Source: Kocuria rosea
GTDB taxonomy: Bacteria; Actinomycetota; Actinomycetes; Actinomycetales; Micrococcaceae
Assembly (NCBI RefSeq): GCF_023715525.1
Contig: NZ_JAMBOG010000020.1
Location: 1 to 64,000 of the forward strand
Direction of reading: 5' to 3'
Length of the DNA: 64,000 nt
Position 1 is the first letter of the stretch. Every line of letters starts with the position of its first letter. Below are positions 198 through 62,283 of the stretch, one piece after another. Below the pieces are notes generated by a model, which saw nothing but the letters and a program-made list of their open reading frames with translations, was not told the origin of the DNA and ran no database searches. The position numbers and the translations under genes were made by a program.

Positions 198-985
198 AAA
201 CCGTGCCCCCGCACCCGCTCTGACCTCTTGCAGGGCCGGCCGGGCCGGCTGCCCACCGGCTCCGGTCCAGCCGGGCGAGGCGGCACAGGGCTAGGGCGGT
301 GGTGTCGTCGTCGGCCGCTGCGGAATCGGCGTAGTCGCCGCACAGTCCCACGAGCTCTTCGGCGGGGGCGGACGGGCCGTCGCCTGCACCGACCCTGCTC
401 GGGGAGGGGACTTGCTGTGCTGAAGGCCCCACAGGATGAGCGGCGGTGGTGAGGTGATGGCCGCACCGGGAGGGTACCGCCAGTAGCCGGAGGATGCGAC
501 ACCGGGCCACGGCCGAGTGCATGATGCGGGCCCAGGTCGCTGCCGCCAGGCGGGCCGGGGTGAACGCCACTGCCGTCGCTCCCCGGCTTCACGGCTGCTG
601 GGCGAAGCCCAGCATGTTCCGCATCGACCGTGAGGCCCGCACCGGAACCCCTGTCGCAACGCCGGGTCCGTGAAGCATGGACCCGCGAGTCAGTGGTTGA
701 TGCGACCGAGGGCGAGCTGGACCGCATCCAGGGTCCCGCACCCCAGCCAGCCCGAGCACGCTGATGGTGTTCCGTGAGCTCCGGTCACTGGGGGATGGCA
801 CGCGTGGCCGGACGGGGTGGGCGGGGCTCCTGCTGGGGAACGGCGGCGGTGGTGGCACGTACGACGACGCGGTGTTCGTCAGTTTCCCACGACCGACCAT
901 CCCACCGGTCTACCAGCCTCGTCAGTGGTTCGCGGGACAGGCCCTGACCGCCCTCACCAGGACTGTCCCGGATGAGGCAGGCGGG
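198..985. other. Gene-poor stretch with decayed fragments
   Basis: No intact gene is supported. On the minus strand, about 230-370 reads like the tail of a PP2C/SpoIIE-type phosphatase (a DDDTTALALCRL motif), but no start or domain body can be assembled. A recombinase remnant at 590-670 is listed separately. The rest has no recognisable signal. Confidence 0.4.
590..670 (-). pseudogene. Serine recombinase remnant (copy A)
   Basis: Translating the minus strand gives RSMRNMLGFAQQ, the inter-domain helix start of Tn3/Hin-type resolvases (usual form RSTRNMLAFAEEL). The catalytic N-terminal domain and the downstream HTH are both missing. The same segment recurs at 43.45 kb and 57.79 kb, and DNA similarity to the 43.5 kb copy continues about 30 bases further upstream. 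Confidence 0.5.
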
Positions 986-988
986 TGT

Positions 989-1297
989 TCAGGCCGCCCG
1001 AGGCGCAGCGACCGCCCGCAGGTCGAACGCCGCCCAGGCGTGGGTGGTGAGCTCGCGCAGGTACCCCTGGGCTTCCAGCACCTGCAGGGCACCTTGAAGC
1101 TGCTCGCCGGTGAGCTGGTGCTCCACGGCCAGGGCAGCCAGATCCAGGTGCGGGGCCTCCTCGAGGAAGTGATCGATCAAGGCGTCCAGGACCACCACCG
1201 CGTCCACGCTCAGGTGCTCGTCGTGAATGGCGCGGGAGCGCAGTCGCGCGGTGGCAGAGGCGGCGGCGTTGATGAGACGAAACGGAGAGGTGTACAT
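989..1297 (-). CDS. Small hypothetical protein, winged-helix-like
   Basis: The protein has 102 residues from an ATG at 1297; a longer frame upstream lacks coding character. It is acidic and helical, with a central stretch (LDLAALAVEHQLTGEQLQGAL) followed by VLEAQGYLREL. This resembles the recognition region and wing of small winged-helix DNA-binding proteins. That is a pattern impression, not a family assignment. It stands alone with no operon partner. Confidence 0.5.
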   Translation of the reverse strand: MYTSPFRLINAAASATARLRSRAIHDEHLSVDAVVVLDALIDHFLEEAPHLDLAALAVEHQLTGEQLQGALQVLEAQGYLRELTTHAWAAFDLRAVAAPRAA

Positions 1298-1714
1298 GGG
1301 ACGACAGATACCCGTGGCTTCCTGAAAAAACCCTAATGATCCCTGATCCCCACGAAGCCCTCTCCTGCAGTGCTGCCCCACCCATCGGCTCCGTGCAGCG
1401 CTGCAGGACCCGTCCTGCTGCGCCCCGGGAGCCGACGTGCCGGAGGGTGCGCCGGGAAGGGCGCCCCTGCCGGGTCCGGGCAGACGGAACGGCGTCCACC
1501 CCTACGAACGGCCCTCACCGCGCCCACCATCCAGGAGGTCCTGGGCAGCTCGGTGACCGCGGCGTCGAGCTGGTGCCGGTCCGGCTCCACCGCCACGCTG
1601 GCGGCCAGCCCGTAGCCAAGGGCCGCCGGGGTCACACGCGTGCCAGCGGGCCACGACCGCTCCGCGAGTGAGGTGGGGCACATAGACTCATGGTCACCGA
1701 GGTAGGGAGGTTGC
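1298..1714. other. Intergenic, no gene seen
   Basis: Neither strand has a frame with convincing coding character here. A Shine-Dalgarno (GGGAGG) at the right end serves the gene starting at 1715. Confidence 0.5.
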
Positions 1715-2263
1715 ATGGGCATCGAGGACGAGTTGCGCGCTCGGGCGGCTGCCCCGGGGACGAACGAGCCGGACTCGCCCCGTCGAGCCGCATTGGATGG
1801 CGAGGCTCGAGGGCTGGGTCTGGAACAGGCCTTGGCAGACGTTCGGCAGGTCGCGATCGAGGCCAGCGAGCTGCTGCGCGCAGAAGGTCTGAAGCCGGCC
1901 AGACTTGTGTACGCCCCACCGGACGCCAAGTCCTACCCCGTAATCGGCCAGGCGTTCTCCATGGTCAGATGCGGTTACGGGTGGCACGTGGTTCGCGGCG
2001 TGGTCGTCGGCACGGACGGCCGGCTGTGGGCACGCAGGCAGGTCCACGACCCGACGCCGCAGAAGGACCTGGATGCCTGGATCCTGCAGGTGGAACCGCC
2101 CCACGGGCGGGGCCAGCTGCCGCCTGCTGTGGAGTACGACGGAAGGGCCCTCCACACCGTGCGCTGGATCTCCGAGAACGAGTACACGAAGGTCGACCTC
2201 ATCGACCGGCTCACGGACGGCTACGCGCGGCTGCTGCTCCTCCATCACCAGCGCGCGACATGA
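1715..2263 (+). CDS. Hypothetical protein, 182 aa
   Basis: The ATG at 1715 follows a good Shine-Dalgarno (GGGAGG, 6 nt away). The first 50 residues are charged and probably disordered. Residues 60-175 look globular, with mixed hydrophobic and aromatic positions (GYGWHVVRGVVVGTDGRLW, EYTKVDLIDRL). No signal peptide or membrane segment is visible. I do not recognise the family. It lies between gene-poor DNA and the thioesterase gene. Confidence 0.65.
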   Translation: MGIEDELRARAAAPGTNEPDSPRRAALDGEARGLGLEQALADVRQVAIEASELLRAEGLKPARLVYAPPDAKSYPVIGQAFSMVRCGYGWHVVRGVVVGTDGRLWARRQVHDPTPQKDLDAWILQVEPPHGRGQLPPAVEYDGRALHTVRWISENEYTKVDLIDRLTDGYARLLLLHHQRAT

Positions 2264-10551: not shown

Positions 10552-11119
10552 CGCCGGCCCCGGCTCTGGCCGTGGCCACGGTCGGGCACGTGGTCGTGGC
10601 GATGAGCCCGGACTGCACCGTGATGCCCCGCCGCCCGCTTCCCCACCGCGGTGGCCACCGGCGCGTTCTGAGCCGTGGGCTCCGTCGGCGCGCGCCAAGT
10701 TCGCAGCCCCGGTCGGTCCTCCAGCGGCTGCCGCGCCCCCGTGCCTCGGCCAGCCGGGGAGCATCGCGGATCCGGAAGTCGGTGCAGGTCTGGCGCTGCC
10801 CATCCAGGTCCTTGCCGGCGGACCTTCCCCCGGCCACCGAACCGGTGATGCGCTCGCCTCTGGTCCCCGGTCTGGTTGTTGTTCGTCGGTCTCACCGGGC
10901 TGGGGCCGGTTGGCGAACGCGGCGTGCACGCCGGGGCCGTTCGACCCCGCTGTCAGGCCCCTGCCCCGAGGGGGTCGCCGAAGACGCCGACGGCGCCCTG
11001 AGCTGCCGGGTCCGCCGCCCCCCAGGGAGGAAATGGGCGGAACGGACGTCAGCGCATGAGTTGCCTGCTCGCGTGGCTGGTGCTCAGGCATGCCGGAGTT
11101 CTGCCGTGTCCGGGCTGAC
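10552..11119. other. Gene-poor stretch
   Basis: Apart from the recombinase remnant at 10741-10860, no coding frame is convincing. The thiF-like gene ends at 11120 on the minus strand; I see no strong hairpin for it. Confidence 0.45.
10741..10860 (-). pseudogene. Serine recombinase remnant (copy G)
   Basis: The minus strand reads RITGSVAGGRSAGKDLDGQ followed by QTCTDFRIRDAPRLAE. This is the hinge and start of the C-terminal HTH of a resolvase (form: RITDSVAKRRAAGKDLGGRRQTFTDSQIRNALRLIE). Both flanking parts of the gene are lost. The copy is more diverged than those at 43 and 57 kb. Confidence 0.55.
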
Positions 11120-38363: not shown

Positions 38364-38372
38364 GGGATGTCC

Positions 38373-44295: not shown

Positions 44296-44385
44296 GTCTT
44301 CACCGCTGAGGTCTTCACCGCTGAGGTCTTCACCGCTGAGGTCTTCACCGCTGAGGTCTTCTCCGCTGAGGTCTTCTCCGAGCAG
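44296..44385 (+). repeat. Six tandem 15-bp repeats
   Basis: GTCTTCACCGCTGAG occurs four times exactly, then twice with changes (GTCTTCTCCGCTGAG, GTCTTCTCCGAGCAG). In the plus frame it would encode VFTAE repeats. There are no spacers, so this is not CRISPR. It lies within decayed DNA between DUF3237 and the MFS gene. Confidence 0.95.
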
Positions 44386-45051: not shown

Positions 45052-46473
45052 TCAGTTGCGCTTCTCGGCGGCCCCGGCGGCCCCGGCGGCCCCGGCGGTC
45101 CCGGCGGCCTCGGTGGCTTCGGGGTGGGCGGCGTGGTCCTGGTGCCCGTCGGCTACGTGCAGATCGGTACCCTGGAGCCGCTTGGGGACCATGGACACCG
45201 CGATCAGGGAGACGATCGCCAGGCCGGCGATGTAGGCGCCGATGGTCCAGGAGGCACCGGTCTCGTTGAGCAGCAGCTGGGCGATCATCGGGGCGAAGGC
45301 CCCGCCGATGATGGAGCCGAACGCGTAGCCGATCGAGACCCCGGAGTAGCGCACCCGGGCCGGGAACATCTCCGCGTACAGCGCCGACTGCGGGCCGTAG
45401 GACGGGCCCAGCCCGATGGTGAGGACCACGATGGCGGCGGCGAACAGCGGCAGGGAGGCGGTGTCGAGCAGCCACCACATCGGGATCGCCCACACGATGA
45501 TGATCGCGTAGCCGATCTGGAAGGTGCGCACCCGCCCGACGGTGTCGGACATCGCCCCGCCGAGCATCGTGAAGACCAGCCACCCGAGCCCGCCGATGAG
45601 GGAGGCGATCAGGGTCGCGGAGCGGTCCATGCCCAGGGCCTTGGCGCCGTAGGAGGCGAAGAAGGCGATGACCAGGTAGCCGGCGGCGTTGTTCGCGGCG
45701 AAGATCAGCGCCGCGAGGGTGACCTCCTTCTTGTGGTGCCGGACCAGCTGGCCCAGCGGCGCGGAGGACTCCTTCTTGCGCAGCTGCATCTGCTGGAACA
45801 CCGGAGACTCGTCGACGGTCTTGCGGATGAGGTAGCCGACCACGATGAGCACCACCGAGGACAGGAACGGGATGCGCCAGCCCCAGGCCTCGAACTGCTC
45901 CGGGCTCAGCGCGGAGGTCAGGGCGAACATGAACCCGGTGGCCAGGAGCATGCCCAGGGGCACGCCGATCTGGGGGTAGGCGCCGAAGAGCCCGCGCTTG
46001 TTGACCGGGGCGTGCTCCACGGCCATCAGCGCCGCCCCGCCCCACTCACCGCCGGCGGAGAAGCCCTGCAGAATTCGCAGCACTACCAGCAGGATCGGGG
46101 CCCACACCCCGATGGAGGCGTAGGTGGGCAGCAGCCCGATCAGCATGGTGGCCGCGCCCATGCCTACCAGGGTCAGAACCAGCACGAGTTTGCGCCCGTG
46201 CTTGTCGCCCAGGTGTCCCGCCACCACCGCCCCGAGGGGGCGGAAGAGGAAGCTGATGCCCAGGGAGGCCCAGGCGACCACCTGGGCCAGGCCGGCGTTC
46301 TCCTCCGCCAGCGGGGCGAAGAACAATGGGGCCAGCACGAAGGCTGCCGCCTGGGCGTAGATGAAGAAGTCGTACCACTCGATGGTGGTGCCCACGAGCG
46401 TGCCCGCGAGGACCTTGCGCTCCTCGCGGGTCATCTCGTGCCGCCGGGCCGGGGCGGAGGAAGAATGGGCCAT
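45052..46473 (-). CDS. MFS metabolite:H+ symporter (MHS family)
   Basis: The protein has 473 residues and 12 helices. MHS markers: TTIEWYDFFIYAQAAAFVL, FRPLGAVVAGHLGDKHGRK, LRILQGFSAGGEWGGAAL, and EMFPARVRYSGVSIGYAFGS. The C-terminus is a His/Ala-rich tail ending in GAAGAAGAAEKRN. It lies 248 nt downstream of the FAD hydroxylase on the same strand, so it is a likely importer of the phenolic acid. Confidence 0.9.
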   Translation of the reverse strand: MAHSSSAPARRHEMTREERKVLAGTLVGTTIEWYDFFIYAQAAAFVLAPLFFAPLAEENAGLAQVVAWASLGISFLFRPLGAVVAGHLGDKHGRKLVLVLTLVGMGAATMLIGLLPTYASIGVWAPILLVVLRILQGFSAGGEWGGAALMAVEHAPVNKRGLFGAYPQIGVPLGMLLATGFMFALTSALSPEQFEAWGWRIPFLSSVVLIVVGYLIRKTVDESPVFQQMQLRKKESSAPLGQLVRHHKKEVTLAALIFAANNAAGYLVIAFFASYGAKALGMDRSATLIASLIGGLGWLVFTMLGGAMSDTVGRVRTFQIGYAIIIVWAIPMWWLLDTASLPLFAAAIVVLTIGLGPSYGPQSALYAEMFPARVRYSGVSIGYAFGSIIGGAFAPMIAQLLLNETGASWTIGAYIAGLAIVSLIAVSMVPKRLQGTDLHVADGHQDHAAHPEATEAAGTAGAAGAAGAAEKRN

Positions 46474-46721
46474 GGGAAACTCCAGTGGGGTCGGGATGAT
46501 GCCGGGCGCCTCGGCACCTCGGCGGAGGAAGGGGATGGAGCGACAACACGGGCTGTCACACCCGCGGGCCGACAGCCCGAACTCTGGGGCCGCCAGCTCA
46601 TGGGGCGCACAGACAGACGGCCGGGGTCAGCAGCTGCATGGGATCGGGGCGTCGGGATGCGGCAGTGGTCAGCTCGCCGGCGTCGGTGGTGGGGAGCATG
46701 CTCGGGGGCTGACGGGATCGG
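46474..46721. other. Gap between the hydroxylase and MFS genes
   Basis: 248 bases without a gene. They may hold a separate promoter for the MFS gene; no clear -35/-10 pair or hairpin is visible. Confidence 0.4.
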
Positions 46722-48617
46722 TCAGGGGGTGTAGATCCGCGTCAGGAAGTCCGACAGTTCGGCGGTTGCGGTCAGGGGCAGCACGTGGGCGACGTACTGG
46801 TCCGGGCGGACCACCACGACCACGCCGTCGCGGCTCAGGCCGCGAGCCGCGTAGATGTCGTCGGCCGGGTCGACACCCCACACCTTGTTCAGGTTGGAGA
46901 TCTGGAACTTGCCGACCTTCGGGCGGAACACGGACGGGACCTTCATCAGTTCCACCTCTTCGTGCGGTTGCTGGTAGACCACGTGGAGGTCGAACAGGGC
47001 GTCGAGGTCCCGGTCCTCCGGGGTGAACCGGCGCACCGGCGATTCCGCGGAGTCCATCCACTCGGCCCAGGCCCGCAGCGTCGAGCTCTCCGCGGAGGAC
47101 ACTGCGGAGTCGGCGAAGGCGTAGATCCGCCACCGTCCGTCGGCGACGTGCTGGTGGCCCAGGAACTTCGGGTTGGTGTCGCAGACGCGCTTGACCGGGT
47201 GGGCCTTGAAGCGCTTGCCCAGGGGGAAGCCCGTGGCCAGCTCCTGGTGCGTGGCCTCGCCCCGGAGCAGGCTCACCGGGTATTCGGTCATGAAGCCGGC
47301 CGGGAACTCGGCGGTCTTCACGTAGAAGTCCTCCAGCGCGGTCGCGCTCTCGAGCTCCTCCGGCTTGGCGGCCATCATGGAGGACCACTCGCGGTCGAAG
47401 TCGATGAGGTCCTGGGCGATCTGCTGGCGCTCGGCGGTGTAGGTGGCCAGCAGCTTCTCCGGTGCCAGCCCGGTCAGCACGTGACCCAGCTTCCAGCCCA
47501 GGTTGAAGGCATCCTGGATGGAGACGTTCATGCCCTGGCCCGCCTTGGCCGAGTGGGTGTGGCAGGCGTCGCCGGCGATGAACACCCGCGGGTTGCGCTG
47601 TCCCGCTTCCTCGGCGGGGACGTCGTCGAAGCGGTCCGTCACTCGGTGGCCGACCTCGTAGACGCTCCACCACGCCACGTTCTTCACGTCCACGGTGTAG
47701 GGCGAGACGATCGTGTTGGCCTGGCGGATGATCTCCTCCAGCGGGGTCTTGCGCACGGCGCCGGCGTCGTTGTGGTCCACCTCGCCGAGGTCCACGTACA
47801 GGCGGACCAGGAAGCCGCCCTCACGCGGGATGAGCAGGATCGACCCGTGCTGGGACTGGATGGCGCACTTGGTGCGGATGTCCGGGAAATCGGTCTCGAC
47901 CAGGACGTCCATGACGCCCCAGGCGTGGTAGGACACGGCACCGACGTGCTGGGCGCCGATGTCCCGGCGGACCTTGGAGCGGGCGCCGTCGGCGCCCAGC
48001 ACGTACTTCGCGCGCACGACGCGCTCCTCGCCGGGGTTCACCCCGGCCTCGGCGCTCTCGCCGGTGCGCTTCAGGGTGACGGCGATCGGGTGCTCCCCCT
48101 CGCCGATCTCCAGCTTGACGAACTCCCAGCCGAAGTACGGCTCGGTCCGGGACGGGGCGTTCTTCGCGAAGCGGGCGAAGTAGTCCAGCACGCGCGCCTG
48201 GTTCACGATCAGGTGCGGGAACTCGCTGACACCCGTGGGGTCGTCGACTGTGCGGGCCGTGCGGATGATGCGGTCCGGGTGGGCCGGGTCCGGCTTCCAG
48301 AAGATCATCTCGGTGAGGTCGTAGGCCTCGGCGATGATCTCCTGGGCGAAGCCGAACGCCTGGAAGGTCTCGACGCTGCGGGCCTGGATGCCGTCGGCCT
48401 GGCCGATCTCCAGCCGGTGCGGACGGCGGTCGACGAGGCAGGTCATGACGTCGGGGAAGCTGGCCAGCTGGGCGGTGGCGGTCATGCCGGCGGGACCAGA
48501 GCCGACCACCAGCACGTCCATGACCTCCGGCAGGTCGGGGGAGCGGTCAACACCCACACCGGCGGCGGGCTGGATCCGGGGGTCCGTGGACACGTAGCCG
48601 TGGTGGTGGAACAGCAT
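46722..48617 (-). CDS. FAD-dependent aromatic hydroxylase, 3-hydroxybenzoate 4-monooxygenase (MobA)-like
   Basis: The protein has 631 residues, the size of MobA/phenol-hydroxylase-type enzymes (about 640). FAD loop VVGSGPAGMTATAQL at 38-52, the DG motif LGADGARSKVRRD, and the GD motif FIAGDACHTHSAKAGQGMNV are present; the C-terminal thioredoxin-like domain begins near 450. It uses NAD(P)H and O2 to add an ortho hydroxyl to a phenol. MobA makes protocatechuate. Here no protocatechuate genes follow; the neighbours are for homoprotocatechuate, so a hydroxyphenylacetate is an alternative substrate. Controlled by the divergent IclR. Confidence 0.88.
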   Translation of the reverse strand: MLFHHHGYVSTDPRIQPAAGVGVDRSPDLPEVMDVLVVGSGPAGMTATAQLASFPDVMTCLVDRRPHRLEIGQADGIQARSVETFQAFGFAQEIIAEAYDLTEMIFWKPDPAHPDRIIRTARTVDDPTGVSEFPHLIVNQARVLDYFARFAKNAPSRTEPYFGWEFVKLEIGEGEHPIAVTLKRTGESAEAGVNPGEERVVRAKYVLGADGARSKVRRDIGAQHVGAVSYHAWGVMDVLVETDFPDIRTKCAIQSQHGSILLIPREGGFLVRLYVDLGEVDHNDAGAVRKTPLEEIIRQANTIVSPYTVDVKNVAWWSVYEVGHRVTDRFDDVPAEEAGQRNPRVFIAGDACHTHSAKAGQGMNVSIQDAFNLGWKLGHVLTGLAPEKLLATYTAERQQIAQDLIDFDREWSSMMAAKPEELESATALEDFYVKTAEFPAGFMTEYPVSLLRGEATHQELATGFPLGKRFKAHPVKRVCDTNPKFLGHQHVADGRWRIYAFADSAVSSAESSTLRAWAEWMDSAESPVRRFTPEDRDLDALFDLHVVYQQPHEEVELMKVPSVFRPKVGKFQISNLNKVWGVDPADDIYAARGLSRDGVVVVVRPDQYVAHVLPLTATAELSDFLTRIYTP

Positions 48618-48656
48618 GGGGCCTCCTGGCGCGGGGAAGGACGGAACGGCTAGTTT

Positions 48657-48691
48657 GTTCTATAATGGAACACGCGGTTCTTTTATCGAAC
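48657..48691. promoter_or_regulatory. Two IclR-type operators, GTTC-N7-GAAC
   Basis: GTTC-TATAATG-GAAC (48657-48671) and GTTC-TTTTATC-GAAC (48677-48691) have centres exactly 20 bp apart, two DNA turns. They lie 40 nt before the hydroxylase ATG and resemble the GTTCGATAATCGNAC consensus of PobR/PcaU-type IclR proteins. AT-rich core with TATAAT. Confidence 0.8.
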
Positions 48692-48866
48692 TCTTGGGGG
48701 CGATCATATACGTTGAGTGACCGCCCTCACAAGGCCCCGCGACGCCGCTCACGCTACGGTCCGGGGAGAGCCTGCTCGCCCCGGGCCACGACCTGCCCGG
48801 CCTCCGGTGCCGCTCCGCGGCCCGGCCCGGGGAACCCCCTCCGACCGCCCACAGAAAGGGGCCACG

Positions 48867-49673
48867 GTGAACGCTCAGGGACATCCTCCCGCCCAGGTGC
48901 CGGCGAGCAGGACGTCGGCCGCGCAGTCGACCGGGAGCGAGCACGGCCGGGCCGCCGCGCCGGTACCGCTCTCCCAGACCCTCTCCCGGGGGGTGCGCAT
49001 GCTCGAACTGGTGGTCTCGGCGCAAGAGCCGCCCACGATCGCCGACGTGGCCGCGCAGCTCGGCGTGCACCGGTCGATCGCCTACCGGATGCTGCGCACC
49101 CTGGAGAGCCACGGCCTGCTGACCCGGGACTCCACCGGCCGGCTGATCGGCGCACCCGGGCTGGCGGTGCTCGCGCGGGGGGTGCAGCAGGACCTCCAGT
49201 CGGCGTCCCTGCCGGAACTGACCGCACTGGCCAACGAGCTGCAGATGAGCGCCTTCGTCGCGGTCTGGGGCCAGGAGGAGTGCATCACGCTGGTGACGGT
49301 GGAGCCCTCTCGCGGCCACGCCGTCACCCAGCGTCCGGGCACGCGCCACCCGCTGGACCGCGGCGCCCCCGGGCTCGCCGTGCAGGCGGGCATGGACCCG
49401 GACGAGCTCACCGAGCTGATGGGCGGCGTCCGCCCCCGCGCGGAGGTGGAGCAGACCCGGCAACGCGGATTCGCCGTGAGCAGCAACGAGGTGCTGGACG
49501 GGGTCTCGTCCGTGGCCGTTCCCCTCCGCGTTCCCGGCCACCTGCCGGCAGCGCTGGCCGTCGTCTACGCCACCCGCCAGCTCGACGTCGAGGCGCTGAG
49601 CCAGCGGCTGACGCACAGCGCGGGGCTGATCGCCGCCCGCCTCGGGCAGCGATCAGCCCCGTCGGATCAGTAG
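48867..49673 (+). CDS. IclR-family regulator of the aromatic module
   Basis: The protein has 268 residues; GTG start after AAAGGGG. HTH (TIADVAAQLGVHRSIAYRML) and a shorter effector domain (FVAVWGQEECITLVTVEP, SVAVPLRVPGHLPAALAVVY). Divergent from the hydroxylase, with tandem operators between, and overlapping the end of hpaI by 7 bp tail to tail. Likely senses the phenolic substrate. Confidence 0.92.
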   Translation: MNAQGHPPAQVPASRTSAAQSTGSEHGRAAAPVPLSQTLSRGVRMLELVVSAQEPPTIADVAAQLGVHRSIAYRMLRTLESHGLLTRDSTGRLIGAPGLAVLARGVQQDLQSASLPELTALANELQMSAFVAVWGQEECITLVTVEPSRGHAVTQRPGTRHPLDRGAPGLAVQAGMDPDELTELMGGVRPRAEVEQTRQRGFAVSSNEVLDGVSSVAVPLRVPGHLPAALAVVYATRQLDVEALSQRLTHSAGLIAARLGQRSAPSDQ

Positions 49674-50512
49674 GACCCGCGCGGTCCCGTGCCCGGTCCC
49701 TGCTCCTCTCCTGCCGGAGCGCACCATGCGTCGGCCAGTGCCTCGGTCCCGCGGGCCAGCAGCGCGACGTCGGCGCCCACGTTGACGAAGTCGGCGCCGG
49801 CGTCGAGATAGTCCTGGGCCTGGGACGGCGCGAATGCGTTGACTCCCACGAACTTCCCCGCCTGCCGCACGGCGGCGATGACGTCCTTGACGGCGGCCAC
49901 CACGTCGGGGTGGCCCTGCTGGCCGATCAGGCCCATGGAGGCGGCGAGGTCCGAGGGACCGACGAAGACGCCGTCCACCCCGCCCACCGCGGCGATCTGC
50001 GCGGTCGCCTCGACCGCGGCTGCGCTCTCGATCTGCACCACCAGGGTGACCAGATCGGCGGCGCGGGTGAGGTACCCGGGGACCCGGTTCCACCGGGCCG
50101 ACCGCGCGAGCGCCGAGCCCACCCCGCGCACCCCGCGCGGCGGGTAGTGCACGGCGCGCACGGCGGCCTCGGCGTCGGCGGCGCTGTTGACCATGGGCAC
50201 CACCAGGGACTGCGCGCCGAGGTCCAGGTACTGCTTGACCAGCACCTCGTCCAGTCCGGGGAGCCGGACCACCGGGATCGAGCCGTAGCCGGCCATGGCT
50301 CGCAGCTGGGCCTGGATGGTCTCCAGGCCCAGCGGTGAGTGCTCGGCGTCGATCAGCAGGTAGTCCAGGCCGGCCGAGGCGCAGATCTCGGTCACGGTGG
50401 GATCTCCCGAGCTGACGAACATGCCGGCCGCCGGTCGCCCGCTGCGCTCCGCGCAGGCGGCCTCGGTGAACAGGTCCTTGAGGCTCGGCTGGGCCTCTAG
50501 ACGAATCGGCAT
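49667..50512 (-). CDS. hpaI: 4-hydroxy-2-oxoheptane-1,7-dioate aldolase HpaI
   Basis: The protein has 281 residues, class II HpcH/HpaI aldolase. Metal and substrate motifs: LDYLLIDAEHSPLGLETIQA, VVRLPGLDEVLVKQYLDLGA, VVQIESAAAVEA (metal Glu), and GVFVGPSDLAASMG (metal Asp). It splits the C7 acid into pyruvate and succinic semialdehyde, the last step of the pathway. Last gene of the hpa operon, overlapping hpaH by 16 bp. Confidence 0.93.
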   Translation of the reverse strand: MPIRLEAQPSLKDLFTEAACAERSGRPAAGMFVSSGDPTVTEICASAGLDYLLIDAEHSPLGLETIQAQLRAMAGYGSIPVVRLPGLDEVLVKQYLDLGAQSLVVPMVNSAADAEAAVRAVHYPPRGVRGVGSALARSARWNRVPGYLTRAADLVTLVVQIESAAAVEATAQIAAVGGVDGVFVGPSDLAASMGLIGQQGHPDVVAAVKDVIAAVRQAGKFVGVNAFAPSQAQDYLDAGADFVNVGADVALLARGTEALADAWCAPAGEEQGPGTGPRGSY

Positions 50513-51282
50513 GTGATGGTCCCCAGTTCCCCGTAGTCGGCGTAGACGGTGTCCCCGGCGTGGACCCACATGGGCCGGGTGAAGGACCCGGCGAGGATGA
50601 TCTCCCCGGCCTCCAGGCGGTCCCCGTGGCCGGCGATCCGGTTGGCCAGCCAGTGCACCCCGTTGGCGGGGTGGTTGAGCACCCCGGAGGCCACCCCGGT
50701 CTCGACGATCTCCTGGTTGCGCCACAGCGCCCCGGCGACCCAGCGCAGGTCGACGGCGTCCGGGGCGACCGGGCGACCGCCGATCACCATGGAGCCGAGC
50801 GCGGCGTTGTCCGAGATGGTGTCGGTGATGGTGCGGCCCTCCATCTCGATGCGCGAGTCCAGCACCTCGAGGGCCGGCACCACGTACTCGGTGGCGCGCA
50901 GCACGTCGAAGAGGGTCACGCCGGGGCCGGCGAGGTCCTCCTTCAGGACGAAGGCCAGTTCCATCTCGATGCGCGGGTGGGTGTACCTCGCCCACTCGTA
51001 GACGTGGCCGGACTCGACCACCTGGTCGTCGAAGATCACCCCGTAGTCCGGCTCGTCGATGCCGGTGGCGTCCTGCATGGCCTTGGAGGTCAGCCCGATC
51101 TTGTGCCCGGCTTTGGTGCGGCCGGCCCCCTCCTGCCGCTGCGCCCAGATCCGCTGCACCGCGTAGGAGTCCTCGATCTGCATCTGCGGGTACCGCTTGG
51201 TCAGCCGCGGCACCGGCGTACGGTCCAGTCCGGCCTGGTGCAGCTCATCGGCGATCTTCACATGGGTCTCGTGGTCCAGCAT
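50497..51282 (-). CDS. hpaH: 2-oxo-hept-4-ene-1,7-dioate hydratase HpaH
   Basis: The protein has 261 residues, of the MhpD/HpaH/4-oxalocrotonate decarboxylase fold. Motifs: KAGHKIGLTSKAMQDATGID, PDYGVIFDDQV, HPRIEMELAFVLKEDL (metal Glu pair), and GVASGVLNHPANGVHWLANR. Adds water to the dienoate before HpaI. Fifth gene of the operon. Confidence 0.94.
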   Translation of the reverse strand: MLDHETHVKIADELHQAGLDRTPVPRLTKRYPQMQIEDSYAVQRIWAQRQEGAGRTKAGHKIGLTSKAMQDATGIDEPDYGVIFDDQVVESGHVYEWARYTHPRIEMELAFVLKEDLAGPGVTLFDVLRATEYVVPALEVLDSRIEMEGRTITDTISDNAALGSMVIGGRPVAPDAVDLRWVAGALWRNQEIVETGVASGVLNHPANGVHWLANRIAGHGDRLEAGEIILAGSFTRPMWVHAGDTVYADYGELGTITCRFV

Positions 51283-51297
51283 CGTCGCAGTCCCCGC

Positions 51298-52464
51298 TCA
51301 GAGCTGGTGTCCGAGCTTGAAGCCCTTGGCGGCCTCGCCCTGGTAGCTGCCCGAGTCGTCACCGGCGCGGGTGTAGGAGAACCCGTCGGCGCCGATGGTC
51401 ACCTCCATCTCGGAGTCGTGGGTGCGGGCCACGACCTCCTGCGGGTTGCCGTCCAGGTCCAGGACCAGAGAGGCCTCGGTGTACCAGGACGGGACGACCG
51501 GGTTGCCCCACCAGTCGCGGCGCTGGTTGTCGTGCACGTCCCAGGTGACGACCGGGTTGTCCGGGTCACCGGTGTAGTAGTCCTGGGTGTAGATCTCGAT
51601 CCGGTGGCCGTCCGGGTCGAGGATGTACAGGTAGAACGCGTTGGAGACCCCGTGGCGGCCCGGTCCGCGCTCGATGCGGTCGGAGATGCGCAGGGCGCCC
51701 ATCTTGTCGCAGATCGCCAGGATGTTGTGCTTCTCGTGGGTGGCGAAGGCGACGTGGTGCATGCGCGGGCCGTCGCCGCCGGTCATGGCGGTGTCGTGCA
51801 CGGTCGGCTTGCGGCGCATCCAGGCGGCGTAGACGGTGCCCTCGTCGTCCTGGATGTCCTCGGTGACGCGGAAGCCCAGGTCCTGCATGAACTTCGTGGC
51901 GCGCGGCACGTCCGGGGTGACCTGGTTGAAGTGGTCCAGGCGGACCAGGGAACCGGGGGTGTACAGGTCGTAGCGCCAGGCCAGTCGCTCGACGTGCTCG
52001 ACGTCGTGGAAGAACTCGTAGGGGAAGCCCAGCGGGTCCTCGACGCGCACCGAGTCGCCGATGCCCTTGGTGAAGCCCTCCGGACGGCGCTCCACACGGC
52101 AGCCGAGCTCCTCGTAGAAGGCCACGGCCTTGTCCAGGTCCTCGGGTGTGCGCACGCGGTAGGAGAAGGCGGCGACGGCGGCCACGGGGCCCTTCCGGAG
52201 CACGAGGTTGTGGTGGATGAACTCCTCCAGGGACCTCAGGTAGACGGCGTTCTCGTCCTCCTCGGTCACGGTCAGCCCCAGCACGTCCACGTAGAACTCC
52301 CGCGAACGCTCCAGATCGGTGACCACGAGCTCCATGTAGGCGCAGCGCAGGATGTCCGGCGCGGGGGCCTGCGGGGTCGGGACGGGGTTGTCGGAATGGA
52401 TCGGGGCTTCCTGGGAGACGTAGAAGCCGGAGGACGTCATCGTCCGGTCGTCGAGGTGGGTCAT
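51298..52464 (-). CDS. hpaD: Homoprotocatechuate 2,3-dioxygenase (extradiol)
   Basis: The protein has 388 residues, two VOC modules. Ligands are His178 (RLDHFN), His237 (MHHVAF) and Glu290 (HRIEIYTQDYY); second-sphere His223, His271 and Tyr280 are also present. Each is exactly 23 higher than the known residue of the Brevibacterium fuscum enzyme (155, 214, 267, 200, 248, 257). The only large difference is a longer N-terminus. It opens homoprotocatechuate to 5-carboxymethyl-2-hydroxymuconate semialdehyde. Confidence 0.97.
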   Translation of the reverse strand: MTHLDDRTMTSSGFYVSQEAPIHSDNPVPTPQAPAPDILRCAYMELVVTDLERSREFYVDVLGLTVTEEDENAVYLRSLEEFIHHNLVLRKGPVAAVAAFSYRVRTPEDLDKAVAFYEELGCRVERRPEGFTKGIGDSVRVEDPLGFPYEFFHDVEHVERLAWRYDLYTPGSLVRLDHFNQVTPDVPRATKFMQDLGFRVTEDIQDDEGTVYAAWMRRKPTVHDTAMTGGDGPRMHHVAFATHEKHNILAICDKMGALRISDRIERGPGRHGVSNAFYLYILDPDGHRIEIYTQDYYTGDPDNPVVTWDVHDNQRRDWWGNPVVPSWYTEASLVLDLDGNPQEVVARTHDSEMEVTIGADGFSYTRAGDDSGSYQGEAAKGFKLGHQL

Positions 52465-52511
52465 GGTGCTGTCCTTTGTGATGAGGGGTGGGTGTCGGCA
52501 GGCGCGCAGGG

Positions 52512-54065
52512 TCAGGCCTGGAGCTCCTCGGCGGCCTGCTCCTGGCGGCCGAAGACCGGGTTGTGGACCTCGCCCAGGTTGATGTGCACGGCCTGCTGGT
52601 CGGTGTAGAAGTCGATCGAGCGGTAGCCGCCCTCGTGGCCCAGGCCCGAGGCCTTCACACCGCCGAAGGGGGTGCGCAGGTCGCGGACGTTGTTGGAGTT
52701 CAGCCACACCATGCCGGCCTCGACGTTCTGGGCGAAGTTGTGGGACCGCTTCAGGTCGTTCGTCCAGATGTAGGCGGCCAGGCCGTACCTGGTGTTGTTG
52801 GCCAGCTCCAGCGCCTCCTCGTCCGTGTCGAACGGGGTGATGGCCACGACCGGGCCGAAGATCTCCTCCTGGAAGATCCGGGCGTCCGGGGCGACGTCGG
52901 CGAAGACGGTCGGCCGGATGAAGTTGCCCTCCGGGAACTCCTCGGGACGGCCGCCGCCGGCGGTCAGACGGGCCTCGCCCTTGCCGATCTCCACGTAGGA
53001 CATGACCTTCTCGAAGTGCTCGGGGTGCACCAGGGCACCGACCTCGGTGCTCTCCTCGTGCGGCAGGCCGACCCGCACGCGCTCGGCCTGGGCGGAGTAG
53101 CGCTCCACGAACTCGTCGTAGATGCCGCGCTGGACCAGGATGCGCGAGCCGGCGGTGCAGCGTTCGCCGTTGAGGGAGAAGACGCCGAAGATCGTCGCGT
53201 CGATCGCGGCGTCCAGGTCGGCGTCGTCGAAGACGACGGCGGGGGACTTCCCGCCCAGTTCCATGGACAGCCCCTTCAGGTACGGCGCGGCGTTGCCGAA
53301 GATGATCTGGCCGGTGCGGGACTCGCCGGTGAAGGAGATCAGCGGCACGTCCGGGTGCCTGACCAGGGAGTCGCCGGCGAAGCCTTCCTCGCCGTAGCCG
53401 TGGACGACGTTGAACACGCCCTTCGGCAGGCCGGCCTCTTCGAAGATGCTCGGCCACAGGGACGCGGACAGCGGGGTGAACTCGGCCGGCTTGAGCACCA
53501 CGGTGTTGCCGGTGGCGAGCGCCGGGCCCAGCTTCCAGGACTCCAGCATGAAGGGGGTGTTCCACGGGGTGATGAGCCCGGCCACCCCGATCGGCTTGCG
53601 GTTGACGTAGTTCACCTGGCGTCCGGGCACCTTGTAGGTGTCGTCGGCCTGGGCGACGATCAGGTCGGCGAAGAACCGGAAGTTCTCGGCGGCGCGCCGG
53701 GCCTGGCCGCGGGCCTGGGCGATCGGCAGGCCGGTGTCGAAGCACTCCATCTCGGCCAGATCCTGGCCACGGGACTCCACGATGTCGGCGACCTTGTGCA
53801 GCACCCGGGAGCGTTCGCGCGGGAGCATGCCCGGCCACGGGCCGTTCTGGAAGGCGTCCTTGGCAGCGGCGACGGCGGCGCCGATGTCGGCGACCTTGCC
53901 GGAGGCGGCTTTGAGGTAGGGCTGGTTGGTGACCGGGTCCAGCACGTCGAAGGTGTCACCGTCGATCGAGTTGACGTGCTCACCGTTGATGTAGTGCTGA
54001 ATCTTTCCCGGCAGGTTGGCCGGGACCCAGCGCTGTGCGTTGTCGGGGGTGGTCTCGGTGCTCAT
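52512..54065 (-). CDS. hpaE: 5-carboxymethyl-2-hydroxymuconate semialdehyde dehydrogenase HpaE
   Basis: The protein has 517 residues, an NAD aldehyde dehydrogenase with Asn169 (TPWNTPF), Glu269 (MELGGKSP) and the catalytic Cys303 (NGERCTAGSR). It oxidises the ring-opened semialdehyde produced by HpaD. The start overlaps the gntR stop (ATGA). Confidence 0.94.
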   Translation of the reverse strand: MSTETTPDNAQRWVPANLPGKIQHYINGEHVNSIDGDTFDVLDPVTNQPYLKAASGKVADIGAAVAAAKDAFQNGPWPGMLPRERSRVLHKVADIVESRGQDLAEMECFDTGLPIAQARGQARRAAENFRFFADLIVAQADDTYKVPGRQVNYVNRKPIGVAGLITPWNTPFMLESWKLGPALATGNTVVLKPAEFTPLSASLWPSIFEEAGLPKGVFNVVHGYGEEGFAGDSLVRHPDVPLISFTGESRTGQIIFGNAAPYLKGLSMELGGKSPAVVFDDADLDAAIDATIFGVFSLNGERCTAGSRILVQRGIYDEFVERYSAQAERVRVGLPHEESTEVGALVHPEHFEKVMSYVEIGKGEARLTAGGGRPEEFPEGNFIRPTVFADVAPDARIFQEEIFGPVVAITPFDTDEEALELANNTRYGLAAYIWTNDLKRSHNFAQNVEAGMVWLNSNNVRDLRTPFGGVKASGLGHEGGYRSIDFYTDQQAVHINLGEVHNPVFGRQEQAAEELQA

Positions 54066-54751
54066 GGTGTGTCCTTTCGGCGTGCAGCGTCGTGAGGTGT
54101 GGTCCGTGATGCCAGATAGGCGTCGAGCGTGTTGAGGCGGTGTTGCCGCGCGGCGGCCTCGACGGCTTCGAAGGAGGCGCCCTGGGCGATGAGGTCCAGC
54201 AGGTGCTCGTGCTCGTCCACGGAGGCACGGGCCCGGCCGGGGACGTAGGCGAAGGTGGAGGAGCGCAGGGCGGCCAGCCGGTTCCAGCCGCGGTGCACCA
54301 GGTCGAGGATGTGTGCGTTCTGGTGGTGCTCGTAGAGCGTGGAGTGGAACTGCTTGTTCAGCGTGGTGAACTGCACCGGGTCGAACTCCTCCAGCACCCG
54401 GCGCATCTGATCGTTGATCCCACGGGCCCGCTGCAGGTCGGCTTCGGTGACCAGCGGCGCGCACTGGGCGGTGGAGAATCCCTCGACCAGGGCCAGGGTC
54501 TCCATGGTGTTCCGGTACTCCACGGGGTCGATGCCCACCACGGTGGCACCGACATTGCGCTCATAGGCCACCAGGCCGTCCTGTTGGAGCATTCGCACGG
54601 CCTCGCGCACCGGCACCACGGACATCTTCAGCTCGGCGGCCAGCTGGGCCAGCACCAGGCGGCTGCCAGGCGCGAAACGGCCCTGCTGGATCCCCTCGAG
54701 GATGGCCTGGTAGGCCATTTCCGCCTTGGACAGGATGACCTCGGCGCTCAT
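54062..54751 (-). CDS. GntR-family (FCD) regulator inside the hpa operon
   Basis: The protein has 229 residues: winged helix (RLVLAQLAAELKMSVVPVREAVRML) and an all-helical FCD ligand domain (FTTLNKQFHSTLYEHHQNAHI). Its position between hpaG and hpaE, with ATGA overlaps on both sides, makes it co-transcribed, so it probably autoregulates the operon. A perfect palindrome before hpaG is the likely operator. Confidence 0.94.
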   Translation of the reverse strand: MSAEVILSKAEMAYQAILEGIQQGRFAPGSRLVLAQLAAELKMSVVPVREAVRMLQQDGLVAYERNVGATVVGIDPVEYRNTMETLALVEGFSTAQCAPLVTEADLQRARGINDQMRRVLEEFDPVQFTTLNKQFHSTLYEHHQNAHILDLVHRGWNRLAALRSSTFAYVPGRARASVDEHEHLLDLIAQGASFEAVEAAARQHRLNTLDAYLASRTTPHDAARRKDTP

Positions 54752-56316
54752 GGGGTGTCCTGTCCGGTGCGCGACTGCTGGTGCTCCTGGTACTTGCGCT
54801 TCCATTCGGCGTTGGGCGGGAACAGTCCGTCCACCGGGTGGCCTGCGGCCACCTGGTCATACACCCAGGCGTCCTGCTGTTCCTGCTCCCAGGCGTCGGC
54901 GATCACCTCGGTCAACATCTGGGGAGGGACGACCACGACGCCGTCGTCGTCACCGATGACGATGTCGCCCGGCTGGACGGTGGTCCCGCCGCAGGCCACC
55001 GTGCCGCCGACCTCCCAGGGGATGTGGCGGCGGCCCAGCACGGCCGGGTGGACGCCGTTGGAGTAGACCTGGATGCCGACCTCGGCGACAGCGGCACTGT
55101 CCCGCACGCCGCCGTCGGTGATCACCGCGTTGGCGCCTCGCACCTTGGCGCGCAGGGCGAGGACGTCGCCGAGGGTGCCGGTTCCCTTCTCACCGCGGGC
55201 CTCCATGACCACCACGTCGTCCGGCTGCACCGTGTCCATGGCGCGCTTCTGGGCGTTGAACCCGCCGCCGAAGGCCTTGAACAGGTCTTCCCGGTTGGGC
55301 ACGTAGCGCAGTGTCTTGGCGTAGCCGAGGATGCGGCGGCCGGGATGGGTGGGCCGCACGCCGTCGATCGTGGCGTTGTCGATCCCCCGCTTGCGCAGCT
55401 GCGCGGTGATGGTGGCCACGGCCGTCTCGTTGATCTTCGCGGTGAGCTCCTCGGTGAGCAGGCTGCGGTCGGGGGCCGGGGAGTCGGGCACATAGTGGTA
55501 CGGCTCCGTGTCCGCTGCGGCCGGCGGCAGTCCGGCGGCCTCGCGCGATCCCCAGGCCTCCTCCCGCTGTGTGTCGTCCACCTGCGGGCCGTGCCCGTAG
55601 GGCGCCATCGGCTCCTCGCCGGCCACCACGCGGGTGACCAGCCGGCCGCTGGAGGGAGCGCCGGGCGCCTCGGGCGCGTCCACCTCGACCTCGACGACGT
55701 CGCCCGGCTGGGCCACGGAGGAGCCGGCCGGGGTGCCCGTCAGGATGACGTCGCCCTCCTCCAGCGTCATGAGCTGGGACAGGTCCGCCACGAGCTGGCC
55801 GAAGGGGAAGACCAGCGCCTCGGTGGTGTCGTCCTGGACGAGGTTCCCGTTGACCCAGGTCCGGATGCGCAGCGCGGCCGGATCGATCCCGGCGGCCGGG
55901 ATGAGGTTCGGGCCCAGCGGGGTGTAGCCGTCCCCGGACTTGTTCTTGACGTTGGAGCCCTTGTCGGCGTGGCGCAGGTCGTACAGGCCCCAGTCGTTGG
56001 CGGCGGTGATGCCCGAGACCTTGGACCAGCCCTCCTCCGGGCGCACGCGGCGGCACGTCTGACCGATGACCAGGGCGATCTCCCCTTCGTAGGCCAGCAG
56101 CTCGGTGCCGGCCGGGCGTTCGATCGTGTCCCCGGTCCGGGCGATGGAGGTTCCGGCCTTGAGGAAGTAGCCGGGGAACTTCGGAGAGCGGCCCCGCTGG
56201 GCGATGCGGGAGGGATAGTTCAGGTGCAGGGCGATGACCTTTCCGGGGCGGTTCGCCCGATCGGTGAAGTCAATGGCCCCGGTGGCCCCGGGAGGGGCCG
56301 GTGTCGTCTCTGCCAT
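54748..56316 (-). CDS. hpaG: FAH-domain isomerase/decarboxylase fused to an RraA-like domain (HpaG-like)
   Basis: The protein has 522 residues from the ATG at 56316. Residues 1-235 are a fumarylacetoacetate-hydrolase fold (HLNYPSRIAQRG; metal Glu77/Glu79 in AYEGEIALVIG; ANDWGLYDLRHADKG; MTLEEGDVILTGTPAG). Residues 285-522 are an RraA/HMG-aldolase-like domain (GTLGDVLALRAKVRGANA; DGGVRD at 400-405; GDIVIGDDDGVVVVP). Classic HpaG has two FAH domains, one decarboxylating and one isomerising. Here the second is replaced by RraA, which in other proteins decarboxylates oxaloacetate. First gene of the operon. Confidence 0.87.
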   Translation of the reverse strand: MAETTPAPPGATGAIDFTDRANRPGKVIALHLNYPSRIAQRGRSPKFPGYFLKAGTSIARTGDTIERPAGTELLAYEGEIALVIGQTCRRVRPEEGWSKVSGITAANDWGLYDLRHADKGSNVKNKSGDGYTPLGPNLIPAAGIDPAALRIRTWVNGNLVQDDTTEALVFPFGQLVADLSQLMTLEEGDVILTGTPAGSSVAQPGDVVEVEVDAPEAPGAPSSGRLVTRVVAGEEPMAPYGHGPQVDDTQREEAWGSREAAGLPPAAADTEPYHYVPDSPAPDRSLLTEELTAKINETAVATITAQLRKRGIDNATIDGVRPTHPGRRILGYAKTLRYVPNREDLFKAFGGGFNAQKRAMDTVQPDDVVVMEARGEKGTGTLGDVLALRAKVRGANAVITDGGVRDSAAVAEVGIQVYSNGVHPAVLGRRHIPWEVGGTVACGGTTVQPGDIVIGDDDGVVVVPPQMLTEVIADAWEQEQQDAWVYDQVAAGHPVDGLFPPNAEWKRKYQEHQQSRTGQDTP

Positions 56317-56395
56317 GCCGTCCTGCCTTCGTGGTCTTCGGAGGTGACCCGGGTCGTACACCTCCAACGGTGTGGCCCGGATCTCATGAGCAGGA

Positions 56396-57454: not shown

Positions 57455-57806
57455 GGCCACGGGCAGTCCTCGGGTCCGTCGGCAGAGGGTCGCCCTGGAC
57501 ATCCCGGGGTCCCGTGCCACCTGGGTGGTCGGCCCCCCCGCCCTCGATCGGCCGGACGGCGCTGCGGATCTGGGAGTCGATGAAGGTCTAGCGCCGTCCG
57601 CCGAGGTCCTTGCCGGCAGCTCTCCGTTCGGCGACCGAGTCGGTGATGCGTTCACGTCCGCTGTTCGACTTCATTTGGGCCAGGGCGGCCATGACCTCGA
57701 AGACCACCGGGGTGGCGGTGTCCACGTCTCCCCCACCCGGTTCAGCACCCGCCCCCCGCTCCGTAGTTGCTGGGCGAAGGCCAGCATGTTCCGCGTCGAC
57801 GGATCC
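57455..57806 (-). pseudogene. Serine recombinase remnant (copy D)
   Basis: The minus strand gives STRNMLAFAQQL, then in other frames GGGDVDTATPVVFEVMAALA, RERITDSVAERRAAGKDLGG, TTQVARDPGMSRATLCRRTR. The whole C-terminal half is present, but with at least two frameshifts and a stop after KDLGGRR. Confidence 0.8.
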
Positions 57807-59489: not shown

Positions 59490-59685
59490 GGCAGCTCTTG
59501 GAGGCACCGGCAGAGGAGGCCAGAGACATGCCGAGCTCCCGGGCCACCTGGGTCACCGGCTCTCCCGCCTCGGTCAGCCGCAGCGCGTAGCGCATCTGGC
59601 AGTCCGTGAACGTCGGACGCCGCCCGCCGGAGCCCTTGCCGGTGACTCTGCGCTGAGCCACCGAATCGGTGATGCGTTCACGTGC
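59490..59685 (-). pseudogene. Serine recombinase remnant (copy E)
   Basis: The minus strand gives RITDSVAQRRVTGKGSGGRR, then PTFTDCQMRYALRLTEAGEP and VTQVARELGMSLASS. Hinge and HTH only. Its upstream end is fused to a truncated histidine-kinase gene at about 59680. Confidence 0.8.
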
Positions 59686-60344: not shown

Positions 60345-60535
60345 GGTGGCTCCTGGGTCCAGGACCGGCCCGCTGGCCGAAGAACCCCACGGACCGGTCG
60401 GAAGCCCGGTTGCCGAAGGGTCCGGCAGCCGGTGTCGATGATGATCTGGCGAATCTGCCGCGCCGAGTGCCTCCCCACCGGGGAGTCCGCCCGCTGCGGC
60501 AGGCACGGCCCGGGAGAGTCCGCCTCGATCGGTGC

Positions 60536-61733
60536 TCACTGCTGGTAGAGCCAGTGGTTGCGGTGGGGGCGGTGGAGCACGGTGCGGCGGGCGGTGCCCA
60601 CACTCGTGCTGACCACCCGTTCCAGCGGTCCCTGGCCCAGTGCTCGTTGCCAGGCGAGGGCGCACCAGGCCGCCGCCCCCAGATGGAGGACGACCCAGGT
60701 GTAGGGCAGGCCGTGGCCGACCCCGAGGGACACCGCCACCAGGTGGGCGGTGTACAGGGTCAGGGCCATCGCACCCATCGCCGACAGCGGCGACAACCAC
60801 GCCCCGGACTTCCTGCCGATCAGCAGGCAGGCCCCCAGCACCAGCAGTCCCACGCCCAGGCCGGCGGCGATCGCCAACGAGGTGTCGGTGGGCAACGAAC
60901 CCGGCCCCCGCACCAGCGCCTCCCCGAGCTCGTCCTGGCTCATCCCCCCGGTCTGGGGCAAACGGCCGTACCCGCCGAAGGCGGAGTCCACGACGGAGGG
61001 GGCGGCCCCGGCGAAGACCACCAGTCCTGCGCCCACCACCAGCAGGCGGATCTGGACCGCCTGCTCGCGCAGGTGCACCCGCCCCACGCCCAGTCCGACC
61101 AGCAGATAGACCAGGTACGGCAGGACCGGGTAGGCGCCGGTCAGCAGCAGCTGGCAGATCGTCCCACCCGGCTCGCCCACCACATCGGCGACCGTCCGGG
61201 AGGAGACGTGGACGGGGAGGACCTCCGCCAGGGCCTGCACCAGCAGCGGACCCACGAGCCAGAAGACCGCCGCGCAGGTCAACAGCGCCGCCGCGGACAG
61301 GTGCAGGAACGGGATCGCCAGCAGCAACAACACCCCGTAGGAGAACAAGAGGCTGTCCACCGGGCCGTCCTGGGGCATCACCGTACCGATCCCCAGGCCC
61401 ACCACGGTGATGAGCACCGCCCGCACGGCCACCCCCACCCGGTCGGCGGCCAGCCACCTGCCGGTGTGCGGGAACCGCCCCCCCGCAGGACAGCGCCAGC
61501 CCCACCCCGGCCAGCAAGGTGAGCAGCGCCGCCGAGTTCCCCGACAAGAACAGGGACGATCCGGTCGGCTCCTGGGTCACGTCGCCGCGGCCGGGCAGGA
61601 CGTGCACGGCCATCAGCCCGATCAGCGCCAGCCCACGGGCCGCGTCAACACCCACCGACCGCCTGGAGGACCTGCGGGCACCACCCGCAGCACCCGCCAG
61701 GTCGGATCCTTCCGTTCTGGGTCTCCAACTCAT
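60536..61733 (-). pseudogene. Membrane acyltransferase-like protein (DUF418/DUF1624 type), frameshifted
   Basis: The N-terminal frame from ATG 61733 reads GVDAARGLALIGLMAVHVLP, then LLTLLAGVGLALSCGG. After a run of seven G at about 61485, the frame shifts by one and continues from VGVAVRAVLITVVGLGIGTV to 60536 with some nine helices, a LSAMGAMALTLYTAHL motif and a basic tail. One base would restore the gene, so a sequencing error in the G-run is possible. Confidence 0.7.
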
Positions 61734-61997
61734 GACTCCCCCGGTGCGCCAGGCTCCCCCGGCACCCCCAGGATCCCGGCCACGAGCCGTATCTGCGGCC
61801 CCGGCACCTCCGGGACCGTCCTGTCCCCAGGGTCCGTGCCGCACCTTGCGCTCCCGTTGAGCAATCCTCAAGATCCCATGAAGTCCTGCGAGCCACACCG
61901 TGCACGCGAGGGGATCGCCTGCCGCACCCGTCCAGCACTCTGCGGTCGCCGGACGGAGGAACCCACGCCTCGCCCAATTCATCGACAACCGTTCGCT

Positions 61998-62283
61998 CAA
62001 ATGGTTGTCGGCATGGTGAGGTCCCGAATCCGCCGGTAGAGGGGACCTCTTGACATTCCCAGGTCGCGGACGACCTGGGTGGCCGGCGATCCGCCGTTCG
62101 GCCCACCGGGTCGGTGGTCCACTCCCGCTCGATTTCCAGCTCCATCTGCGTCGAGGTCGCCATGACGGTGAAGACCATGGACCCCCTCGGGGTTCAGACC
62201 TCTCGGACACGCGCCCTGCTGTGCAGTTCCTCGACGAGGGTGAGCAGGTTCTGCGTCGAGCCTCTCAGCCCGTCCAGCGTGGT
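61998..62283 (-). pseudogene. Serine recombinase remnant (copy F)
   Basis: In minus-strand frames: MVFTVMATSTQMELEIERE, then SPATQVVRDLGMSRGPLYRR followed by IRDL, with NLLTLVEELHSR upstream at about 62250. The stretch between hinge and HTH (RRAAGKDLGGRRQTF...) is deleted, and frames differ. Confidence 0.75.

Follow-up and report, generated by a model that had tools for sequence, protein, structure and literature searches.

What could have placed seven broken copies of one recombinase gene, all reading the same way, in a single stretch of the Kocuria rosea genome? The stretch analysed (the window) covers the first 64,000 nucleotides (nt) of contig NZ_JAMBOG010000020.1, here C13, and carries seven decayed segments of one small serine recombinase gene, R1, all on the minus strand. 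BLAST among the seven places showed that each matches at least one other with 66-94% identity, in direct orientation only and with a minus-strand reading. Translated from the minus strand, the segments give parts of a single protein, extending from where the catalytic portion ends to the terminus. A profile of 30 intact R1 genes recovered six of the seven, with best E-values of 6e-18 to 1e-87; the copy at 0.6 kb (remnant A), which has no match to this profile, is known from BLAST alone and is the weakest of the seven. The catalytic N-terminus was found in none of them, including with a broad protein profile. These data bear out the original prediction of tails of one recombinase type, all on the minus strand and without the catalytic domain. 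As explanation, we tentatively favour, while rating it somewhat short of probable, that plasmid-type DNA was captured repeatedly at resident copies of R1 and its recombination site (res) as direct repeats, and that the copies then decayed.

Does the arrangement extend beyond the window? DNA and protein searches of the whole genome led to 13 contigs, which were then searched with the R1 profile. Twenty-six copies were listed, 25 decayed and one intact, remnant A being counted by BLAST alone; weak matches on C15, C26, C30 and at C14:36698 were unsupported by the profile and excluded. The copies are distributed over C13 (seven, minus strand), C25 (five, plus), C16 (three, plus), C45 (three, minus), C14 and C9 (two each, plus), C28, C31 and C24 (one each, minus) and C4 (one, plus). 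Hence both the parent gene, on C28, and the further copies for which a genome-wide search had been proposed do exist. Adjacent copies on the same contig agree in orientation in 16 of 16 pairs (p=1.5e-5 if independent). No contig holds a listed copy of opposite orientation. Among same-contig repeats more than 500 nt apart on the retrieved contigs, R1 pairs were 19 direct and none inverted, against 35 direct and 10 inverted for other repeats (Fisher p=0.026, the pairs not being independent). The orientation bias of the R1 copies is real, yet the background is uneven. An orientation control with IS110 was too small and was not used. The copies are also clustered, with seven on a 68-kb contig and five on a 31-kb contig (Poisson P of 8.5e-7 and 3.7e-6, for contigs that were not chosen blind).

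The intact parent gene (C28:326-916, minus strand) encodes 196 amino acids (aa) comprising a resolvase catalytic domain (PF00239, E 1.2e-37) and a C-terminal resolvase helix-turn-helix domain (PF02796, E 4.6e-9), the organization and length (about 180-210 aa) of small serine recombinases of the resolvase/invertase group. Its nearest solved relatives (4m6f, 3uj3) are a DNA-invertase, presumably the one named Gin, and Tn3/gamma-delta resolvases. Being a serine recombinase, R1 does not fit an integron, which has a tyrosine integrase and attC cassettes (no search for attC sites was made). Upstream of intact R1 genes we found a conserved region of about 144 nt that opens with GGGATGCGAGAC/GTCTCGTC and contains two more GAGAC-type repeats. 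This arrangement resembles Tn3-like res regions. The original prediction had placed a directional integration site at the 3′ end of a recombinase gene. A site beside the gene is supported, but it sits upstream: the palindromic core GGGATGCGAGAC/GTCTC lies about 144-125 nt before the R1 start, the homology to the left of most copies stops there, and a natural exchange in K. marina falls inside it. When the left sides of 35 copies were compared, 22 had no more than 226 nt upstream of the gene in common with any other copy, and 13 shared at least 0.8 kb with at least one other.

The exchange was recognized by comparing two K. marina strains. On one contig, KCTC 9943 carries two intact R1 copies that face opposite ways at a distance of 24 kb. 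The same-genus genome G012 contains a KCTC 9943 stretch with 100% identity and identical coordinates. In SO9-6 (L044), the sequence left of the core corresponds to KCTC 9943 copy 1 (L029) and that right of the core to copy 2 (L042), with the switch inside the core: the left 200 nt are 0.99 identical to one copy and the right 200 nt 0.98 identical to the other, versus 0.33 and 0.23. Identity at the crossover itself extends over only about 17-19 nt. The assembly matched to SO9-6 yielded no copy 1 (best match 85%), so that exchange, inversion and replacement are indistinguishable in this case. The conserved upstream region, the palindromic core and this one natural exchange suggest a Tn3-type resolution system, with a res region and crossover site beside the gene. 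As to whether such a system acts on direct repeats only, inverted copies are present in KCTC 9943, in a strain pair that lacks copy 1 in the assembly of the second strain.

Intact R1 in relatives is both chromosomal and plasmid-borne and is preceded by a Tn3-like res region; one relative (G003) has four intact chromosomal copies. Several relatives have tails downstream of an intact copy in the same orientation, although not all do (G008:C3:116364). The flank to the left of the 264-kb copy in G003 has a second occurrence at 2145 kb (82% identity), where it is followed by a core with five mismatches, 1.3 kb of DNA, and an intact-looking core with R1; from its sequence, this is suggestive of an insertion between two direct cores. 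Plasmid records matching R1 at E 1e-30 or better numbered 930, and for 892 of them the identity is under 60%. Kocuria plasmids come nearest, with R1 at about 90% identity, and six of these, 63-143 kb long, were taken up; they were picked as R1 matches, and Kocuria plasmids free of R1 were not counted. On these six, R1 stands alone or near another recombinase gene; five of them have the core. In an incomplete gene table, five of the six show no transposase gene beside R1, and on the sixth the upstream neighbour of R1 is an IS110 transposase. Within about 5-6 kb of R1 on eight plasmids, no Tn3-type transposase is annotated in this incomplete table, which does not place R1 in a Tn3-family transposon (terminal repeats were not searched for). 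To the right of R1, K. rosea 13 plasmid 1 carries genes for an FAD monooxygenase, a dioxygenase and a maleylacetate reductase, aromatic-degradation genes that we liken to the aromatic block of the window.

The res region of R1 is itself a target in relatives. Tn402/Tn5053-like elements lie inside it, about 25 nt right of the core and at nearly the same place (L240 (G013:C41) 3768-7794, L222, L224, L020 and L030). Of six junction sets, four have TGTG...CACA ends in almost identical positions, one was observed at a single end, and one is of another type; the proteins scanned in one element comprised a Mu-type transposase, an AAA protein and a resolvase. PMC7765201 describes 'res site hunters' that insert preferentially at res sites, using the resolvase of that site, and the elements in R1's res are apparent examples in Actinobacteria. 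A second recombinase, R2, had been considered as a user of the same site and was dropped, as it belongs to Tn402-like elements inserted beside the site.

How would the window have arisen under repeated capture? R1 would be the serine recombinase of a plasmid-type resolution system whose res-like region immediately precedes the R1 gene. Plasmids, as DNA circles with R1 and res, would recombine with an R1/res copy resident in the chromosome, either site-specifically at the res core, in which case the exchange is expected inside GAGACGTCTC, or homologously within R1. Any such integration makes direct repeats, and therefore each new module would join the array in the same orientation. The copies would later lose res and the catalytic end and decay, at different times. 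We infer that the window may have been built stepwise by such capture. The degrees of decay agree with arrivals of different ages. For 19 of 25 pieces the best identity to an intact gene exceeds that to another remnant, with one tie and five opposite cases that have overlaps of 91-114 nt; this comparison used 44 intact sequences (a few identical), split remnant G in two and left out the weak copy C45:78828. Best identities of the window copies range from 0.62 (A) to 0.87 (D), and remnant D, in which residues 70-192 are still in open frame, looks the youngest. To judge from these sequences, the copies look like arrivals of different ages and not like duplicates of one scar; separate origin of most copies is supported but not proven. 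Exceptions are E with its partner on C25 (see the table) and the pair A and D, which share 26 nt before the tail.

Under the capture reading, the tails would delimit plasmid-derived chromosomal DNA and show its relative age, information that is usually lost completely. A resolution system regarded as a means of keeping plasmids in single form would then also be able to pass them into chromosomes in one set direction. A bolder version, which we consider distinctly unlikely, is a long-standing one-way docking port in one chromosomal region: R1/res circles would enter at the resident copy, the cargo would be kept, and the older copy would regularly be disarmed by losing both res and its catalytic end, the latter repeatedly near codon 70. 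Disarming would then fix the cargo and leave a datable tail, and window and genome would hold an ordered history of plasmid capture.

A number of observations weigh against capture. No core or res sequence is recognizable near any window copy, so that site-specific integration cannot be read from the window, and the detectable site halves expected at each module junction of a site-specific accretion array are missing there. Among all 26 copies, res is retained only by C28 and C14:28850, and 24 of the 25 decayed copies lack at least the first ~37 residues, the exception being C14:28850-29420. This absence may be partly a detection effect because, among intact genes, res (mean distance 0.31) and the N-terminus (0.19-0.20) vary more than the rest (0.10-0.17). 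Nevertheless, the well-preserved D and C25:26301 still start at residues 70 and 66, though the preceding peptide is common to 44 of 44 intact genes. In the best-preserved copies the recurring loss of the catalytic part near codon 70 is thus real; it would fit an integration point inside the gene, and capture leaves it unexplained. A fusion of the core to codon ~71, tested in 12 copies, was unsupported (p 0.03-1.0). On C25, DNA collinear with G003 1925049-1930380 reaches within about 10 nt of an R1 tail, which means that the tail joins host DNA directly at about R1 nt 210; plain res x res integration predicts otherwise. A scan of 19 proteins encoded between or close to copies on C14, C16 and C25 found no replication or partition protein. 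The identity comparison is tilted toward intact genes, with 44 of them on offer against 24 other pieces. Neighbouring R1-type copies up to 100 kb apart in relatives form 14 pairs, ten in the same and four in opposite orientation (agreeing pairs: G003 5/5, G008 2/4, G014 1/2, G012 0/1, G016 1/1, G225 1/1), a count without a 28-base match in G012 that would be one more opposite pair; the combined figure of 25/29 for this genome and relatives was computed without G225. Finally, G003 at 2145 kb is the only suggestive case found of a segment gained between cores. Relatives were to reveal modules gained or lost exactly between copies, and apart from this gain they gave no clean deletion. The idea that recombination between copies would delete rather than invert accordingly stands in part: deletion is possible, and the opposite copies of KCTC 9943 leave room for inversion.

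The background of repeats bears on an ordinary alternative, in which resolvase genes arrived with unrelated transfers into a gene-acquiring region and decayed, their orientation reflecting a general excess of direct repeats plus chance. Same-contig repeats other than R1 also favour the direct arrangement (35 of 45, 78%), which counts against capture as well; both orientations occur in relatives, and R1-like genes are common on plasmids. This explanation is unlikely, if the strongest of the rivals, since R1 pairs exceed even that background (at the p given above for non-independent pairs), adjacent pairs agree throughout, and the genes of C13 lie on both strands, 25 along and 19 against the direction of the copies. 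Plasmids carrying R1 might instead have entered through R1-R1 homology, giving direct repeats and clusters with the res core unused. Intact R1 genes are indeed mosaic (inter-segment distance correlations of only 0.13-0.45), and pairs with a common left flank stay alike through res into R1 and diverge at the R1 3′ end. We regard purely homologous entry as unlikely, however, because the 17-19 nt of identity at the K. marina crossover are too little for ordinary homologous recombination and most left boundaries fall at the core.

Chromosomal position was examined on G003, of which 44% was retrieved for mapping. Stretches of C28 (19 kb) and C25 (5 kb), together with most of C45, align to 1.73-2.14 Mb. 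Their copies run in the same direction as four G003 copies at 1.80-1.96 Mb and opposite to a fifth at 2.145 Mb. Matches of the low end of C45 are scattered, C13 is placed by a weak 1.8-kb anchor, and C4, C24 and C9 map elsewhere. These data give hints of a common array region near the middle of the G003 chromosome. Another possible explanation is that the copies follow fork movement because insertion depends on replication polarity. In G003, which is complete and starts at dnaA, ten R1-type copies all run fork-wise if the terminus is near 2.0-2.1 Mb (DNA search of the whole genome, profile search of the retrieved part; three distant paralogue matches, one pointing against, are uncounted). On nine of nine contigs with decayed copies (C13, C25, C14, C9, C16, C45, C31, C24 and C4), the local GC skew is positive when read in the direction of the copies. 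Attractive at first as the principal explanation, replication direction was kept only as a rival, contradicted by two or three mapped contigs: C4 and C24, and probably C9, point against the fork on G003. GC skew is negative on C28, which holds the intact copy, as it is on the excluded contigs C15, C26 and C30, and G003 has no clean replichore pattern. Moreover, no dif-like site was found in the retrieved 44% of G003, and the intact K. marina copies face opposite ways. We consider this the least probable of the explanations weighed here.

Other readings were tried and dropped. An apparent circular permutation between the window and G003, with two anchors seemingly swapped around a remnant, dissolved: one anchor is a widespread gene with a better match elsewhere in the genome of the window's own strain, and the other lies on different contigs in relatives. 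For integration inside R1 near codon 70 with displacement of the tail, there were no 5′ halves apart from full-length copies and no junction motif beyond two pairs, and mosaicism runs throughout intact genes and not at one point. Two apparent cases were not counted: a clean core insertion at G003 259.86 kb, where the left homology ends before the core, and a core boundary in a plasmid/K. dechangensis pair, whose alleles differ near the core.

Coordinates of the R1 remnants and gene blocks in the window
Feature	Position	Strand	R1 nt	Profile E	Best intact identity	Remarks
Remnant A	577..652	-				0.6 kb; 74% over 76 nt to 43.3-kb copy; 94% over 33 nt to 57.6-kb copy; BLAST matches span 33-76 nt
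Remnant B	10742..10862	-	378-498	5.8e-18	0.777	
Remnant C	33161..33391	-	224-445	4.7e-40	0.788	
Organic-acid block	33609..40860	-				Between C and D; MatC/CitMHS, TctA with TctB-like part, TctC, 4-oxalomesaconate-tautomerase-like
Remnant D	43111..43470	-	216-575	1e-87	0.869	178 bits (protein profile)
Aromatic-degradation block	43563..56367	.				Between D and E
Remnant E	57462..57803	-	216-575	7.5e-72		About 220 nt 5′ of tail common to C25 copy (C25:20347)
Remnant F	59490..59682	-	382-575	2.8e-36		Adjoins start of putative sensor kinase
Remnant G	62019..62296	-	183-425 + 496-572			Apparent internal deletion

The original proposal that the copies lie at module boundaries holds in part. Remnants at 33.2 and 43.3 kb enclose the organic-acid block, in which the TctB-like and tautomerase-like matches fall under their cut-offs. 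Those at 43.3 and 57.6 kb enclose the aromatic block, where phenol 2-monooxygenase, HpaE and a fumarylacetoacetate-hydrolase family protein pass their cut-offs and HpaH is just under. The apparent kinase start beside the 59.6-kb copy was read by eye and lies next to a response regulator. A gene at 60475-62087, on the 3′ side of remnant G, also directly follows two intact G003 copies (G003:C1:264641 and 1803191); it looks by eye like a membrane protein, and its frames have no match in Pfam or NCBIfam. Among the 19 proteins sampled from inter-copy blocks of C25, C14 and C16 are CHAT/NACHT proteins, transposase, and proteins of transport, catabolism and regulation. Near an R1 remnant on C14 are genes for a NACHT-domain protein (L011, 5863-9576) and a CHAT-domain protein (L010, 17572-19827), possible defence genes. 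The window also contains a second direct repeat (33019-33127 and 62346-62453, 78-82% identity), lying 3′ of remnant C and 5′ of remnant G; a pair of IS110-type transposase genes that face opposite ways and are 35% identical (4085-6523); and a gene for a repetitive small protein of 157 aa with short repeated units and no Pfam match (58427-58906).

How does R1 compare with known systems? No published account of R1, its remnants or its res in Kocuria or relatives was found in titles and abstracts, most subscription journals being outside this scope. The CinH-RS2 system of Acinetobacter plasmids (PMC9501444) consists of a 189-aa recombinase and a 119-bp site and also recognizes other res sites. 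By description, R1 resembles it as a small stand-alone plasmid resolvase system, but R1 copies are many, chromosomal, decayed and arrayed one way. The work of Kholodii (2001), 'The shuffling function of resolvases', is reportedly a further close system beside CinH-RS2. With Tn3/gamma-delta resolvases and DNA-invertases R1 shares family and length, and it has a res-like region with a palindromic outer core directly upstream; in contrast to Tn3 systems, no adjoining Tn3 transposase is annotated on the eight plasmids. In tandem island accretion at one attachment site, as in arrays of staphylococcal cassette chromosomes (SCC) or integrative and conjugative elements (ICE), modules are added successively in one orientation by large serine or tyrosine integrases at a fixed host gene. 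The proposed R1 array would have this one-orientation addition of modules in common with them, whereas its marker is a resolvase and its neighbouring genes vary.

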